A DNA stretch of 64,000 nucleotides from Gammaproteobacteria bacterium (GTDB lineage: Bacteria > Pseudomonadota > Gammaproteobacteria > Steroidobacterales > Steroidobacteraceae), in contig JAQGOG010000044.1 of assembly GCA_028293765.1 (NCBI GenBank), positions 1-64,000 on the forward strand. The letters are read 5' to 3'. Below are positions 1 through 58,852 of the stretch, piece by piece. The translations under genes were made by a program, and so were the position numbers. Each line of letters opens with the position of its first letter. The first letter of the stretch is position 1. The notes beneath the pieces are model-generated. The model saw nothing but the letters and a program-made list of their open reading frames with translations, ran no database searches and was not told the DNA's origin.

Positions 1-984
1 AACTTGATTTGGGGCGGAAACGGCTCAGGGAAGACCTCGCTGCTCGAGTCGATATTTCTCCTCGGTAGAGGAAGGTCATTCAGAACGCGGAGTTCTGAGC
101 GTCTGATCCGGTATGGGCGAGAGCGATTGGTGGTATTCGGACGGACGGAAGGAGCGAGCAGCCAAGCGCTGGGCGTACAGGTGTCGAAGAGCGATGGGAC
201 GATGGCGCGTATCGGCGGCGCGACAGCCGCCTCCCTGACGGAGTTGACGCAAGTGTTCCCCGTGCAGGTGATTGACCCCGGCGTCCACAAGCTCGTGGAG
301 GAGGGAGGACATCGCCGCCGGCGCTGGCTGGACTGGGCTGTGTTCCACGTGGAACATCAGTTCGGGGATTGGTGGGTCCGGTATACCCGTGCACTCAAGC
401 AGCGCAATGCCGCGCTTCGGGTACAGGCAGCGGAGGTCGGCGTCTGGGATTCTGAGCTGGCTCGCCTGGGCGAACTGGTCGCCGAGTCCAGGCGAGCGTT
501 TGTGGAGAGACTGCTGCCGTACTGGCGCGAGTCGGTTCTAGCGCTCAGTGGGCTGGAACCGGAGCTTCATTACTTCAAGGGTTGGGCCCACGACGTCACC
601 TTGGCGCAGGCACTTGCAGCCTCTAGGCCGCGCGACGAGGCCAAACGAGTGACCCACCCGGGGCCACACCGCGCGGACGTTATCGTCAGGCTCAACGGAC
701 GGCCCGCTCGGGAAGTTCTCTCCCGCGGCCAGCAAAAGCTCGTAGCGGTTGCAATGACGCTCGCTCAGCTCAATCTATTGCAGGAAGCGACTCAGACCAC
801 GCCGACGCTGCTTTTGGACGACCCGGCAGCGGAGCTCGATGGAGAGCATCTACGGCGTTTCATTGAGCAGGTGATGAGGCTGCGCTGCCAGCTGGTTTTG
901 ACGTCGTTGCAATCCGAATCACAGCTATTTGGCACCCCCGATCGTGTGTTCCACGTGGAACAGGGGAGGGTGCAATCTGTATAA
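1..984 (+). CDS. recF: DNA replication/repair protein RecF (5' truncated)
   Basis: RecF is an SMC-like ATPase that loads RecA at gaps in the RecFOR pathway. The reading frame is open from base 1, so the first ~30 residues lie outside the window. The Walker A motif GGNGSGKTS is at the very start, followed by LLGRGRSFR, typical of RecF. The signature SRGQQKL and Walker B LLLDDPAAELD lie in the last third. About 327 residues are visible; the family is usually ~360. gyrB follows after 27 bp, as in the common dnaA-dnaN-recF-gyrB order. Two perfect parS-like palindromes lie inside the coding sequence and both are read as V-F-H-V-E. Confidence 0.97.
   Translation, partial: NLIWGGNGSGKTSLLESIFLLGRGRSFRTRSSERLIRYGRERLVVFGRTEGASSQALGVQVSKSDGTMARIGGATAASLTELTQVFPVQVIDPGVHKLVEEGGHRRRRWLDWAVFHVEHQFGDWWVRYTRALKQRNAALRVQAAEVGVWDSELARLGELVAESRRAFVERLLPYWRESVLALSGLEPELHYFKGWAHDVTLAQALAASRPRDEAKRVTHPGPHRADVIVRLNGRPAREVLSRGQQKLVAVAMTLAQLNLLQEATQTTPTLLLDDPAAELDGEHLRRFIEQVMRLRCQLVLTSLQSESQLFGTPDRVFHVEQGRVQSV
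341..356. promoter_or_regulatory. parS: parS-like centromere site 1, inside recF
   Basis: The 16-bp perfect palindrome TGTTCCACGTGGAACA matches the parS consensus used by chromosomal ParB proteins (the Pseudomonas form has CC/GG at the inner positions). It is embedded in recF codons. The window also encodes ParA and ParB, and parS sites are known to cluster near the origin. The match is seen directly; ParB binding is inferred. Confidence 0.85.
947..962. promoter_or_regulatory. parS: parS-like centromere site 2, at the 3' end of recF
   Basis: A second exact copy of TGTTCCACGTGGAACA lies 606 bp from the first, again within recF and in the same reading frame. Two identical 16-bp palindromes in one gene are very unlikely by chance and support a ParB nucleation cluster. 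Confidence 0.85.
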
Positions 985-1008: not shown

Positions 1009-3429
<2,421 letters not shown>

Positions 3430-3760
3430 TAGGGTATTGTCTCACCAGTGAGACACAAATCGCCGGGTCGGCCTCCATTGTAGGCCAATCCGGCGCAATC
3501 CCGGCCGCTACATGAATTGCTTCGCCAGCTCCCCAGGCCACCGCATCGATTCCCGCCTGCAAAGGCCTACGCCGTGGTCGAGGGATCCGCCTGCAGGTCG
3601 CCCGCTCCCGGATCGAAACTGGTTGTCGGCTTGCACGAGTATGGCGTCCTCATCGGTGGACCCCAGCGCACCATAGACGATTCGACCCTGGAACAACGTT
3701 TTGCCGTCCTCGACGTCGACCAGGGCGCGCGGTGATCTCGAGGTGCGGTCGCCGGTTTCG
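3430..3760. other. Intergenic region after gyrB, no convincing gene
   Basis: This stretch lies between the convergent gyrB and plsC. It begins with an 18-bp palindrome at 3438-3455 (TGTCTCAC, CA, GTGAGACA), which has no T-run and so is not a classic terminator. On the minus strand a frame runs on past the plsC stop and includes residues such as RIVYGALGSTDEDAIL from a TTG at 3696 to a stop at 3508. It resembles no family I recognise and has no clear ribosome binding site. Confidence 0.5.
3438..3455. repeat. 18-bp inverted repeat downstream of gyrB
   Basis: Arms TGTCTCAC and GTGAGACA are separated by 2 bp, 9 bp after the gyrB stop codon. It could form a short hairpin in the gyrB mRNA or be a protein-binding site. 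There is no following U-tract. Confidence 0.6.
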
Positions 3761-4507
3761 CTAGACAGACCGCGTTCGCAGTCCCTCTTCGGCCGAGCCG
3801 GGCTGGAGGCGGGTCACCGTCGCCTCGATCCACTCTTGCACCTCGCGATTGATCTCGCGGACGTCTCGCCCACGCGCGTCGATGGGTGGGCCGATGACTA
3901 CCCGGATGGTCCCTCGCTTTTTCAGCAGCCCCCGCCGTGGCCAATAGGCGCCGGCGTTGTGCGCCACCGGGACGATCAGCCTGCCGGTCTCAGCTGCGAG
4001 TAGCGTGCCGCTCACGCCATATCGCCGAGTCTGTCCCGGAAGCATCCGCGTGCCCTCCGGAAAAATCATGATCCAATCGCCCTCCGCGATTCGCTGCTTG
4101 CCCTGCTCGACGACCTGGCCGACGGCGGAGTGACCCGACTTACGGTCGATGGCGATGGCATGCAGTTGCCGGATACCCCAGCCGACCACGGGAATCCACA
4201 GCAGCTCGCGCTTCAGGACCCACACCTGCCGCGGGAAGACCACGCCCATAGCGATGGTTTCCCAGGACGAGGAGTGCTTCCAAAGCGCGATGTGATTGCT
4301 GGCCGGGAGATTCTCCGCTCCCTCGATCCGGTAATCGAGCCGGCAGAAACACTTCAATGCCCACAACAGCACCGCGGCCCAGACGCGCGCCAGTCTGAAC
4401 CGATGCCGGAACGGCAGGAACAGGCAGGCAAGGACGAAGAAGATGGCGTAGAAAAACGTCCAGAGAAACAGAAACGCCGTAAAGATCAGCGAGCCAATGA
4501 ACTGCAT
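3761..4507 (-). CDS. plsC: 1-acyl-sn-glycerol-3-phosphate acyltransferase
   Basis: PlsC adds the second acyl chain to lysophosphatidic acid at the inner membrane. The 248-residue protein has hydrophobic N-terminal segments (residues ~1-30 and around 45) and the acyltransferase blocks: block I reads KHSSSWET, giving H-x4-E rather than the textbook H-x4-D. Block III is FPEGTR, followed by a conserved PVAHNAG. The Glu form is seen in proteobacterial homologues with KHQS-W-ET, so activity is likely. It lies downstream of glyS on the same strand, 86 bp away, a common proteobacterial neighbourhood. Confidence 0.93.
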   Translation of the reverse strand: MQFIGSLIFTAFLFLWTFFYAIFFVLACLFLPFRHRFRLARVWAAVLLWALKCFCRLDYRIEGAENLPASNHIALWKHSSSWETIAMGVVFPRQVWVLKRELLWIPVVGWGIRQLHAIAIDRKSGHSAVGQVVEQGKQRIAEGDWIMIFPEGTRMLPGQTRRYGVSGTLLAAETGRLIVPVAHNAGAYWPRRGLLKKRGTIRVVIGPPIDARGRDVREINREVQEWIEATVTRLQPGSAEEGLRTRSV

Positions 4508-4593
4508 GAGTGCGAAGTGTACCGAAGTGTCGGGTGTGATCGGTTCGCGACGGGGAACGGCGAACGCGACCTGTGAGTGTTACGTGTCAGCAT

Positions 4594-6744
4594 TCAACCA
4601 GGCAGGCGCGACAGGTCGGCTACTCCCGCAAACAGCGCCTGCAACTGCGCGAGCAAGGCAAGACGATTGGCCCGCAGCTTCGGATCCTCGTCCATGACCA
4701 TCACCTGATCAAAGAACTCATCGACGGCCGGGCGCAGTTGCGCCAGTCGTCCGAGGGCGTTCGCATACTCTCGTTGTGCGGTGGCAACAGAGACGGCATC
4801 CCGGAGTGCGCGCAGCGAGTCAAAGAGCCGCACCTCCGCGGCCTCTCGCAGCGTCCCGACGTCGATCTGCGTGGAGGGGGTCCCGCCAGCCTTGCGCAAG
4901 ATGTTGGCAATGCGTTTGTTGGCGGCAGTGAGGCTCACAGCTTCCGGAAGCTCGAGGAAGGCGCGCAGCGCTTTGAGCCGTGCATCGAAATCCAGCGGCG
5001 AGACCGGCGAGCTCGCCAGCACGGCATCGAACATCTCGGTCGTCATGGTTGCCGCGCCGATCGTCGGTCGGGTACCGCCCCCCTCCAGGTAATACGCTCG
5101 CAGCCGCTCCACGATGTAGTCATAGACGTCCGCCGCCACGCTCTGCGGAACGATGACCGGTGCCGGCTTGCCTGCCGCAGCCGCGATCCTCTCTATGTCC
5201 ACGCGTGCCAGCTCGACCGCACGACCCACGAACTGCCGCAAGTCCAGATCGATTCCCGTCTCGATGAGAATTCTCAACACGCCGATGGCCGCTCGCCGCA
5301 GGCCGAGCGGATCCCGGGTTCCGGTCGGCTTCTCACCGACAGCGAAAATGCCGGCCAGCGTGTCGAGCTTATCGGCAATGGCGACCGCCAGCCCTGGGTG
5401 GGTTTCCGGCAACTCATCGCCCGCGCCACGCGGGAGGTAGTGTTCGCGGATCGCCACCGCGACCTCGGGGGTTTCGCCATCCGCGAGCGCGTAGTAAGTG
5501 CCCATGATCCCCTGCAACTCGGGAAATTCGCCGACCATCGCCGTGAGGAGATCACACTTGCACAATTCCGCCGCGCGTTCGGTCTCCGCGCGTTCTTTGT
5601 TGCGGACAGCGGCTATCTCGCCAGCGAGCGCGCGGACGCGCCGTGTCTTGTCGCCGATCGAGCCCAGTTTCACCTGAAAAGTGACCGCGTTCAGCGCGTC
5701 CCGCCGGGCCGCGAGCGGTTGCTTGCGATCCTGATCCCAGAAGAAGGCCGCGTCGGCCAGGCGCGGGCGCACGACGCGCTCGTTCCCTTCGCGTACCTTC
5801 GATGGATCGCGGCTCTCGATGTTGCTCACGGTAATGAAGCAAGGCAGCAGCCGGCGTTGCTCATCCTCGACGGGAAAGTAGCGCTGGTGTTCCTGCAGCG
5901 TCGATATCAGCACTTCACGCGGCAGCTGCAGAAAGCGCTCTTCGAACCGGCCGGCGAGCGGAACGGGCCACTCCACCAGCGCGGTCACTTCGTCGAGCAG
6001 CGCCTCGCCGATCAGAGCGCGACCGCCGAGCTCGGTCGCGGTTGCGTTCACGCGCTCCCGTATCAGCTCGCGGCGAACCGCGAAGTCGGGCAGCACGTAG
6101 CCGCGTTCGCGCAGAGCGCGTTCGTAGCTCGCGGGCGACGTGATGCGAATGGGCTTCGGCGCATGAAAGCGGTGCCCACGAGTCATGTTTCCCGCGGCGG
6201 TATCGAGCAAAGTCGTGGGGATTACGTCTTTCCCATACAGCATGATCAGCCAGTGGACTGGCCGCACGAACTCGGCGTCGCTCGAGCCCCACCGCATGCG
6301 TCGCGGAATAGGCAGCGCCTCGAGCGCCGCCCTCACGATACCGGGGAGAAGATCGCCGACCGCAGCGCCCGGCTTGTTTCCGACGAAGAAGAGGAACGCG
6401 CCTTTGCCCTCGTCGACCCGTTGCAGTGCTTCCACCGTCGTTCCACAACTCTGCGCGAACGCGAGAGCCGCGCGGGTCGGAGCACCGGCGCCATCGAATG
6501 CAGCGCTTACCGGCGGACCGCGGCGCTTGATGTCCTGCTCGGGCTGGCTTGCTGCCAGTCTTTTCACCCACACGGCGAGGCGCCGCGGTGTTGCAAACGA
6601 AATGAGATCCCCGTGCTCCAGGACCGCCTTGTCGAGGCCCGAACGCAGTCCGGACGCGAACGCCTGCTCCAGGCCGCGAAGCGCCTTTGGCGGCAATTCC
6701 TCTGTGCCGATCTCTACGAGGAAGTCGCGACGCTCGACCTTCAT
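4594..6744 (-). CDS. glyS: Glycyl-tRNA synthetase beta subunit
   Basis: GlyS is the tRNA-binding beta chain of the alpha2-beta2 bacterial glycyl-tRNA synthetase. The 716-residue product (family ~690) begins with the typical [20 protein letters not shown] and contains [30 protein letters not shown] and [27 protein letters not shown], the degenerate HD-like region. A C-terminal DALR-type anticodon-binding region follows. Its ATG overlaps the end of glyQ by 4 bp (ATGA), which indicates translational coupling. Confidence 0.98.
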
Positions 6745-56547: not shown

Positions 56548-56673
56548 GGCGCGGCCTGGGGCGACGGGGCATAGGTCGCGTCGCGAATACCAGCATCCGA
56601 CTCCATTCGGAGCCTAGGCTGTCGCTGGAGTACATACGCGGGTCCCTCCGTGGCGGTGAAGTACACTGTCGCC

Positions 56674-57831
56674 ATGAAGCGTGTCATTGCCATAGCGAAC
56701 CAGAAGGGCGGCGTCGGGAAAACCACCACCGCGGTTAATCTTGCTGCGTCGCTCGCTGCGACGAAACGCCGCGTTTTGTTGATCGATCTCGATCCGCAGG
56801 GCAACGCCACGATGGGCAGCGGCATAGACAAGTCGCAGCTCGAACGCAGCTCGTGCGACGTCTTGCTGGACGAAATCGAGCTCAGCACGGCCGTCGTGAG
56901 TGTCGAGCCGGGTGGTTTTTCGCTGCTGCCAGCTAACCAGGACCTCACGGCCGCCGAGGTGCGCCTGCTCACCATGCCGACCGGGCGCGAGACGAAGCTC
57001 CGTAACGCTCTCGCCCCGGTGCGCGATTCTTATGACGTCATCCTCATTGATTGCCCGCCGGCTCTCAACATGCTGACGGTCAATTCGCTCGTTGCCGCGA
57101 ATAGCGTGCTGATCCCTATGCAGTGCGAGTACTACGCCCTCGAGGGATTGTCGGCGCTGTTGGGAACGGTCGAGCAGATCCGCGTTGCCGTGAATCCGAC
57201 TCTCGAGATCGAAGGCATCCTGCGCACGATGTTCGATCCCCGTAACAATCTCGCGAATGAAGTGAGCGCCCAGCTCATTACGCATTTCGGCGAGAAGGTG
57301 TTCCGCACCATCATTCCTCGCAACATCCGCCTGGCGGAAGCGCCTTCGTTCGGCAGGCCGGTGTTGTTTCACGATAAGGAGTCGCGCGGCGCTCTTTCTT
57401 ATCTTGCGCTTGCGGGCGAAATGATCCGGCGCGAAGAGGAGGAGAAAGAGGACGCAGGGGCGGGCGCAGCGGCGGCCGGCGCCGCCGTGGCGGCGAGCAG
57501 TGCTTCCCGGACCACGGTCGACGCCTCCGCTGGCGTTACGACGGGCGCCGCTAGGGCTGGCGTCGGTGCGTCATCCGTTGATCGGCCGCCGGCTGGGGGG
57601 CGGCCCCCTGCAACGGCGGAAGTGAAGGACTCGACGGTAGTCAGTGCTCCGGCCGCGACCAATTTCGGGATGCCGGTCTCGGGTGGCTTGGGCTCCGCGA
57701 CGCCGCTGGAAGACCGAACTGAAGCGGCTGCCGGCACGCCGACCGCTGAACCAACCAGCGCTACCAGCCGCTCACCACAGAACGCGGATCCCGCCGCGGA
57801 CGAAAACCAGGCTAGAACCCTCTCTGACTGA
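56674..57831 (+). CDS. parA: Chromosome partitioning ATPase ParA with long Ala-rich tail
   Basis: ParA binds DNA in its ATP form and drives ParB-parS complexes apart. The first ~260 residues are a complete ParA/Soj: deviant Walker A KGGVGKTT at residues ~11-18, Walker A' LLIDLDPQGNAT, Walker B VILIDCPPALNMLT and IRLAEAPSFGRPV. Standard ParA ends near LALAGEMIRR (~255). Here a further ~125-130 residues follow, acidic then Ala/Thr/Ser/Pro-rich and probably disordered. The ATG at 56674 begins the conserved sequence. parB follows after 100 bp. Confidence 0.96.
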   Translation: MKRVIAIANQKGGVGKTTTAVNLAASLAATKRRVLLIDLDPQGNATMGSGIDKSQLERSSCDVLLDEIELSTAVVSVEPGGFSLLPANQDLTAAEVRLLTMPTGRETKLRNALAPVRDSYDVILIDCPPALNMLTVNSLVAANSVLIPMQCEYYALEGLSALLGTVEQIRVAVNPTLEIEGILRTMFDPRNNLANEVSAQLITHFGEKVFRTIIPRNIRLAEAPSFGRPVLFHDKESRGALSYLALAGEMIRREEEEKEDAGAGAAAAGAAVAASSASRTTVDASAGVTTGAARAGVGASSVDRPPAGGRPPATAEVKDSTVVSAPAATNFGMPVSGGLGSATPLEDRTEAAAGTPTAEPTSATSRSPQNADPAADENQARTLSD

Positions 57832-57931
57832 CGGCTCCATGGCGAGGGGGTCGTAAACATCCATTCGCCGAACGGTCTCCCGGCCTGGCACATAGGTTAC
57901 TGGTCCCCCGGATTCGTTATGATCCGCGGCC

Positions 57932-58852
57932 ATGACTCAGAAGAAACCTACGCTCGGCAGGGGACTGGCCGATCTGCTTGGCCAGACGGCGATGCGCCCG
58001 GCGCCGGTCGGCGCTCAGACTCCCGCCGCTACGCCGCCGCCTTCCGGTGAGGAATTGGCCCGCCTGCCGCTGGACCTCCTTCAAAAGGGCAAGTACCAGC
58101 CGCGTATGGACATGCGTCCAGAGACGTTGCAGGAACTCGCCGATTCGATAAAGGCTCAAGGCGTCGTCCAACCCATTGTGGTGCGCCCCGTGGGCGTGCC
58201 GGGTATCGGCGAGTCGCAGCGGTACGAGATCATCGCCGGCGAACGCCGTTGGCGAGCCGCGCAAATGGCGGGACTCTCGGAAATTCCAGCGGTCATTCGC
58301 CGCATTCCCGACGAAGCCGCGATCGCCGTCGCGCTGATCGAGAACATCCAGCGCGAGAACCTCAATCCGCTCGAAGAAGCGCGCGCGCTCGAGCGGCTCA
58401 TCTCCGAGTTCGAGCTAACCCATCAAGAGGCCGCGGAAGCGGTCGGGCGCTCGCGCGCGGGAGTCAGTAATCTGCTGCGCCTCCTGGAGCTAGCCCCTGA
58501 GGTCTGCGAGCACGTGGAAAGGCGCGAGATAGAAATGGGGCACGCGCGCGCGCTGCTGGCTCTGCCCAATCGTCGTCAGCAGATCGAAGTGGCGGCGCTC
58601 GTTGCGAAGAAAGGCCTCTCCGTGCGCGACACGGAGGCGCTGGTCCGGCGAATGCAGCAGCCCGCCACGGTGCCAGGAGCGGACGGACGAGACACCGCGC
58701 GCGATCCGAATGTTCATAAGCTCGAACAGGAACTGGCTGATAAGCTCGGCGCGAAGGTGGCCATCCAACATTCCGCCGGCGGCAAGGGCAAGGTGGTGGT
58801 GAGCTACAACAGCCTCGACGAGCTCGACGGCATTCTGGCGCACATTCAGTAG
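57932..58852 (+). CDS. parB: Chromosome partitioning protein ParB
   Basis: ParB is a CTP-dependent clamp that loads at parS. The 306 residues include the N-terminal KPTLGRGLADLLG (ParA-contacting), the CTP-binding regions PRMDMRPETLQELADSIKAQGVVQPIVVRP and EIIAGERRWRAAQMAG, ALIENIQRENLNPLEEA, the helix-turn-helix HQEAAEAVGRSRAGVSNLLRLLEL and a C-terminal dimerisation domain. Its predicted targets are the two parS copies in recF. Confidence 0.97.
   Translation: MTQKKPTLGRGLADLLGQTAMRPAPVGAQTPAATPPPSGEELARLPLDLLQKGKYQPRMDMRPETLQELADSIKAQGVVQPIVVRPVGVPGIGESQRYEIIAGERRWRAAQMAGLSEIPAVIRRIPDEAAIAVALIENIQRENLNPLEEARALERLISEFELTHQEAAEAVGRSRAGVSNLLRLLELAPEVCEHVERREIEMGHARALLALPNRRQQIEVAALVAKKGLSVRDTEALVRRMQQPATVPGADGRDTARDPNVHKLEQELADKLGAKVAIQHSAGGKGKVVVSYNSLDELDGILAHIQ

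Follow-up and report, generated by a model that had tools for sequence, protein, structure and literature searches.

Two putative parS sites within recF of a gammaproteobacterium and the recurrence of this arrangement across its class

The stretch of DNA analyzed here (henceforth the window) comprises the first 64,000 nucleotides of a contig (C208) from a Steroidobacteraceae genome. It starts at base 1 of the contig inside a recF gene, so that about 23 N-terminal residues of RecF are missing. The recF gene is followed by gyrB, an acyltransferase gene, glyS and glyQ, and towards the other end of the window by parA and parB (Table 1). The sole dnaN match in the assembly begins at position 6112 of a second contig (C54; 7,064 bases) and is cut by the end of that contig, with a DnaA match preceding it at 4521-5870. 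As recF is cut at the start of C208 and dnaN at the end of C54, the usual dnaA-dnaN-recF-gyrB cluster is probably interrupted by a small assembly gap. The recF-gyrB order, together with a dnaA-dnaN contig that ends inside dnaN, fits proximity to oriC; the GC skew of the window is too weak to place oriC.

Table 1. Positions of the genes and putative parS sites in the window
Feature	Position	Strand	Remarks
recF	1..984	+	5' end cut by contig start; hosts both sites; TIGR00611 304.7 bits, cut-off 172
putative parS site 1	341..356	+	TGTTCCACGTGGAACA; recF codons 114-119, V-F-H-V-E-H; exact match
putative parS site 2	947..962	+	TGTTCCACGTGGAACA; recF codons 316-321, V-F-H-V-E-Q; exact match
gyrB	1012..3429	+	next gene in the dnaA-dnaN-recF-gyrB cluster; Pfam GyrB domains
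parA	56650..57831	+	PF13614 AAA_31 2.6e-62, PF01656 CbiA; start codon uncertain, homology from about residue 9-11
parB	57932..58852	+	ParB_N, HTH_ParB, ParB_C domains

A reading made from the sequence alone had pointed to two perfect parS sites within recF, each translated as V-F-H-V-E, and direct sequence matching recovers both at the same positions. In the RecF frame the surrounding residues are LDWAVFHVEHQF and DRVFHVEQGRV, and the canonical 16-bp palindrome of chromosomal parS, TGTTYCACGTGRAACA, has two exact copies in the window. No third 16-mer was found in the whole window at up to 3 mismatches, where 0.12 matches are expected and only 1 of 100 shuffled sequences gave at least two. The same reading predicted that the 16-mer would not be scattered over the genome. 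This is borne out by the assembly (6,639,219 bases, or 6.64 Mb, in 211 contigs; 98.83% complete), which contains exactly two copies, both falling within 622 bases, and none further at up to 2 mismatches. A reversed control pattern likewise gave two matches in the same search. For a genome this large, a first-order Markov model predicts 0.0007 exact copies, with about one match at up to 2 mismatches. Hence the absence of near matches is unremarkable by itself, and the weight rests on the presence of two exact copies within a single gene, which goes beyond chance. Unassembled DNA between C54 and C208 could conceal another site.

The window encodes a cognate ParA along with a ParB that bears parS-specific residues and is the only PF02195 match of the genome in a profile search. 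Alignment of this ParB to Caulobacter ParB (6t1f) places R, L, E and G at Caulobacter positions 173, 179, 184 and 201 (numbering from PMC7383237, with positions counted by hand on the alignment); residues 173 and 201 are described there as absolutely conserved in ParB and altered in Noc. Among NCBIfam models the Noc model scores highest for the window protein but stays under its cut-off (211.7 versus 315), and the ParB model TIGR00180 passes (193.8 versus 58.45). The parA-parB-atp order is common to three relatives (G244, G015 and G149). In the window parAB-atp (56650-58852) lies on the same strand as recF (1-984), on the gyrB side. The parAB genes had been placed far from the recF sites, and parA does begin 55.7 kb beyond site 2. 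A comparison was gathered by hand from the 47 genomes in which recF and parB both lie on one contig among the matches listed. In these same-contig pairs the recF-parB distance ranges from 11 to 471 kb with a median of 18.5 kb and reaches at least 55 kb in 6 of 47, and the gap as such is ordinary. The two genes are on opposite strands in 42 of these 47 pairs and on the same strand, as in the window, in the other 5, which makes the origin region of the window look rearranged.

Among 40 related recF loci the closest RecF is 92% identical and comes from an unclassified gammaproteobacterial MAG (L004); three of the 40 are labelled Steroidobacteraceae. With two loci set aside (L009 and L040), strict cores occur at both sites in 31 of the remaining 38, at site 1 only in 6 and at site 2 only in one. 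All six loci devoid of a strict site 2 (L006, L008, L010, L011, L012 and L020) have 2-3 extra cores in the stretch from the last dnaN match to recF, as if compensating; in L010 and L012 site 2 itself is one core base short of intact. Extra cores among the other 32 loci are confined to L007, which retains both sites, and L038. Two contigs labelled as Klebsiella pneumoniae MAG (L035 and L040) carry a parS-bearing recF 54-60% identical to that of the window, and are probably mislabelled bins.

We then surveyed 276 genomes of at least 90% completeness, drawn evenly from the class of the window, which is taken to be Gammaproteobacteria in the GTDB sense. The core GTTYCACGTGRAAC is present in 233 of them and the reversed control in 9. 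By hand tally, 43 genomes have no core, 34 have one, 165 have exactly two and 34 have three or more. Exactly two cores is thus the commonest state of the class, with the proviso that not every one of these 165 genomes has both in recF. Four genomes (G100, G241, G277 and G322) show an expansion over the usual two to 8-12 cores. A ParB match was found in 262 of the 276 genomes and a RecF above cut-off in 226, RecF being scored on the best candidates of each genome. Four of the 14 ParB-negative genomes have cores all the same, namely G113, G114 (L063), G192 (L233) and G200; these are draft assemblies, from which parB may be absent. A second sample comprised 89 genomes from the order of G222, which we take to be Enterobacterales. 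Here the core is present in all 66 genomes with a strong ParB, in 1 of the 20 without ParB and in none of the 3 with a weak one, the reversed control occurring in 10 of the 89.

From both samples 160 recF genes spread over families were taken, with genomes lacking ParB added deliberately, giving 161 with the window; they are the best-scoring among the matches listed, and low-scoring RecFs are under-represented. A clear ParB accompanies 139 of them, the window included. Both cores are present in 91 of these, site 1 only in 9, site 2 only in 21 and neither in 18, so that an intact core stands at the homologous column in 100 of 139 genes at site 1 and 112 of 139 at site 2 (the G081 gene being truncated ahead of the latter). 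Neither core occurs in any of the other 22 recF genes, 16 of which come from genomes that lack ParB and 6 from genomes whose ParB is weak or divergent. Of the 18 genomes with neither recF core, 11 have canonical cores elsewhere and 5 have altered cores in recF, one of the latter (G347) with a canonical core elsewhere too. The remaining two, G141 (L198) and G239 (L197), belong to one genus; their ParB is clear, yet neither genome contains a canonical core and neither RecF contains FHVE. A single recF gene, L106 (G345), contains three parS cores.

The sequence-only reading also predicted conservation at the DNA level beyond what the protein requires. We compared the codons at the sites with usage elsewhere in the same gene over the 139 ParB-bearing genes. 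The prediction was upheld, in that the top seven of 149 testable codon columns for synonymous constraint are all parS codons (in order 319, 117, 318, 116, 114, 320 and 118; z from 15.9 to 8.8). The next-ranked column has a z of 6.5 and the median is 1.5; as the genes are mutually related, z serves as a ranking and not as a probability. At sites 1 and 2 respectively, CAC accounts for 112 of 121 and 115 of 123 histidine codons (expected 41%), GTG for 105 of 108 and 121 of 127 valine codons (expected 33-34%), and GAA for 96 of 101 and 96 of 98 glutamate codons (expected 53-54%). Where ParB is absent or weak (22 genes), the valine column of site 2 is without excess (3 of 11, expected 3.4), and the histidine and glutamate codons retain a mild one (z 1.8-2.1).

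A related pattern is seen in the amino acids. At site 1 the motif FHV[EK] occurs in 106 of 139 ParB-bearing genes and in 0 of the 22 whose genomes lack ParB or have a weak one; the corresponding figures for site 2 are 120 of 139 and 3 of 22. Since the losses of ParB are phylogenetically clustered and the independent pairs too few for significance, a raw Fisher p is not applicable to contrasts such as 106/139 versus 0/22. On a RecF tree (FastTree; G081 left out; few supported branches) there are three supported independent pairs for ParB loss, of which about 1.8 agree with the association, about 1.2 show no difference and none is opposed. Within one genus, G025 has ParB and both cores, and G155 and G249, which have no ParB match, have decayed versions. 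In RecFs from genomes where ParB is absent or weak, V117, E118 and H318 are mostly lost and the flanks retained: D111, W112, G113, F121 and G322 are common irrespective of ParB, and F115 persists in 20 of 22, H116 in 17 of 22 and V319 in 11 of 22. The earlier claim that the centromere constrains the RecF sequence consequently finds support for V117, E118 and H318, and less clearly so for F115 and H116, which are common without ParB too. The persistence of the latter two residues, along with the mild histidine and glutamate codon excess, in the absence of ParB suggests that the motif belongs in part to RecF itself.

The converse situation, in which recF is missing, was also encountered. A RecF above cut-off is absent in 50 of the 276 class genomes, and by hand tally 26 of these 50 have a core; we examined 25 of the 26 genomes, leaving out G100 with its 12 cores. 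In 21 of the 25, belonging to 12 family codes, one core (8 genomes) or two (13 genomes) lie between dnaN and gyrB, and these 21 dnaN-gyrB stretches gave no RecF match at 1e-4. The spacing of the paired cores is 25-106 bases in 12 of 13 genomes and 722 in the remaining one, G174 (L055). The dnaN-gyrB gap of that genome, at 3344-4207, is 864 bases long without a RecF match, and is possibly the location of a decayed former recF. ParB was detected in 20 of the 21 genomes with a retained site, the exception being G192. As for the other four of the 25, the cores of G091 and G198 lie near parAB, and the context is ambiguous in G199 and G011. GTDB places Betaproteobacteria inside Gammaproteobacteria and, to our knowledge, Betaproteobacteria are devoid of recF; hence the independent losses of recF may be few.

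In several ParB-bearing genomes without the strict core, the two recF sites have the same altered core. The cores concerned are CACATG twice in G022 (L151), where valine is replaced by methionine at both, CATGTG twice in G162 (L195) and G347 (L107), CACGTA twice in G148 (L185) and CATATG twice in G084 (L269). The recF of G003 (L206) combines CACATG with its mirror image, that of G029 (L270) has TACGTG and TACGTA in plus-strand reading, the two altered cores of G196 lie in recF and between recF and gyrB, and G005 and G228 each have one in recF. A degenerate core pattern searched in 16 chosen genomes gave matches in 13, with just two in G003, G022, G148, G162, G196 and G029, five in G347 and four in G084. 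Its reversed control gave 0 or 1 match in seven of these eight genomes and four in G347, so that single extra matches carry little weight and placement in recF carries more. Such concerted changes would fit a shift in ParB preference; alignment of 23 ParBs to that of the window recovered no single residue change common to the group.

Taken together, the two palindromes are very probably the chromosomal centromere (parS) of the ParABS system of the window bacterium. Their sequence and copy number, the cognate ParB, the synonymous constraint, the association with ParB across genomes and the persistence of sites after loss of recF all speak for this interpretation. By analogy with established work on ParABS, we infer binding, loading and segregation in the window organism: ParB dimers would recognize each 16-mer and load there as CTP clamps, the loaded ParB would slide outward across the dnaN-recF-gyrB region, and ParA would move the origin complex so formed into opposite halves of the cell. 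Selection would keep the sites as DNA, with the codons of RecF, and some of its amino acids, following the target of ParB at two places and not the function of RecF.

We weighed three alternatives and rejected each of them. V-F-H-V-E might be a functional motif of RecF whose codons spell parS by coincidence. It is true that the sites sit in conserved protein surroundings (D111, W112, G113, F115, H116, F121 and G322 being common regardless of ParB status) and that F115-H116 may serve RecF itself. However, the codon test contradicts a coincidence, the valine and glutamate codons being constrained far beyond usage; moreover, V117, E118 and H318 are mostly lost from ParB-less RecFs whose flanks are retained, and the sites outlast recF. 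We hence consider this explanation highly improbable. No greater credence can be given to the proposal that the palindromes are targets of another protein, either Noc-type or an unrelated CACGTG binder. The Noc model does come out on top for the window ParB, although below its cut-off, but the key residues R and G are as in ParB, unlike the Q and R of Noc, and the sites track ParB across genomes.

Somewhat less remote, though still unlikely, is the notion that the recF sites are true but auxiliary parS and that the working centromere is at another place, perhaps in a stretch missing from the assembly, or perhaps diverged in sequence. The assembly is in 211 contigs with a gap between C54 and C208, and in P. 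aeruginosa two further strong sites lie outside recF, any one of the four being sufficient (PMC4368675). Against this, no further copy is found at up to 2 mismatches in a 98.8% complete assembly, and exactly two cores is the commonest class state (165 of 276 by hand tally).

For the class as a whole, we consider it likely that two fixed codon blocks of recF carry a pair of parS sites as the default centromere. Several residues there, V117, E118 and H318 above all, would be determined by the centromere more than by what RecF itself requires; the pair would outlive recF, and the residues would decay after loss of ParB. Drifting cores would change together, sometimes altering RecF, as in the change of V to M at both sites. 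Throughout a bacterial class, a DNA site would thereby determine part of the sequence of a conserved repair protein. Natural experiments run both ways, some genomes having lost the gene but retained the site, and others having lost ParB with decay of the motif. As several lineages show parallel change in their two recF copies, this genome set should be useful for studying ParB-parS co-evolution. The pattern also calls for caution, in that the V-E and the second-site H of V-F-H-V-E in these RecFs should not be taken as functional residues of RecF. The window adds one genome in the minimal two-site state.

We know of no recF pair among the parS sites of Bacillus, Caulobacter or chromosome 1 of Burkholderia. 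These systems share with the window the same core and the same RXXG recognition by ParB (PMC7383237, PMC5450999). In Caulobacter, an insertion hot spot for transposon-borne parS spans recF and gyrB, separate from the native parS cluster (PMC5815017). Noc and its NBS resemble the window system in belonging to a related protein family with a 16-bp palindrome. Positions 1 and 6 distinguish NBS from parS, and the four key residues of Noc are Q173, K179, K184 and R201 (PMC7383237), so that, with R, L, E and G at these positions, the window ParB is devoid of the Noc-type residues.

The placement of parS in recF is already published for P. aeruginosa, and the window is a further instance of this arrangement. 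In the portions of the literature accessible to our search, parS inside recF was met for P. aeruginosa only (PMC5521831, PMC3909081). The class-wide recF pattern was not met in that literature, the parS survey of Livny et al. 2007 being beyond its reach; specialists may not have met the dual coding throughout the class, the retention of sites once recF is gone, or the joint drift of both cores. In P. aeruginosa parS1 and parS2 lie within recF (PMC5521831), being the sites nearest to oriC at about 4 kb (PMC3909081), and ParB ChIP-seq peaks are seen in vivo at the four parS sites (PMC5098823). parS1 ends in AACC and parS2 in AACA (PMC4368675, Table 1), and the latter is identical to the 16-mer of the window. 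Silent mutations made at positions 2, 5, 8, 11 and 14 of parS1 and 5, 8, 11 and 14 of parS2 (PMC4368675) imply, as we infer from these positions, the same reading frame as in the window. The two systems differ in that P. aeruginosa has the further strong sites parS3 and parS4 outside recF, whereas the window genome has the recF pair only, both perfect. Likewise, parAB of P. aeruginosa lies about 7 kb beyond oriC on its far side, whereas that of the window is about 56 kb off, on the gyrB side and on the strand of recF.
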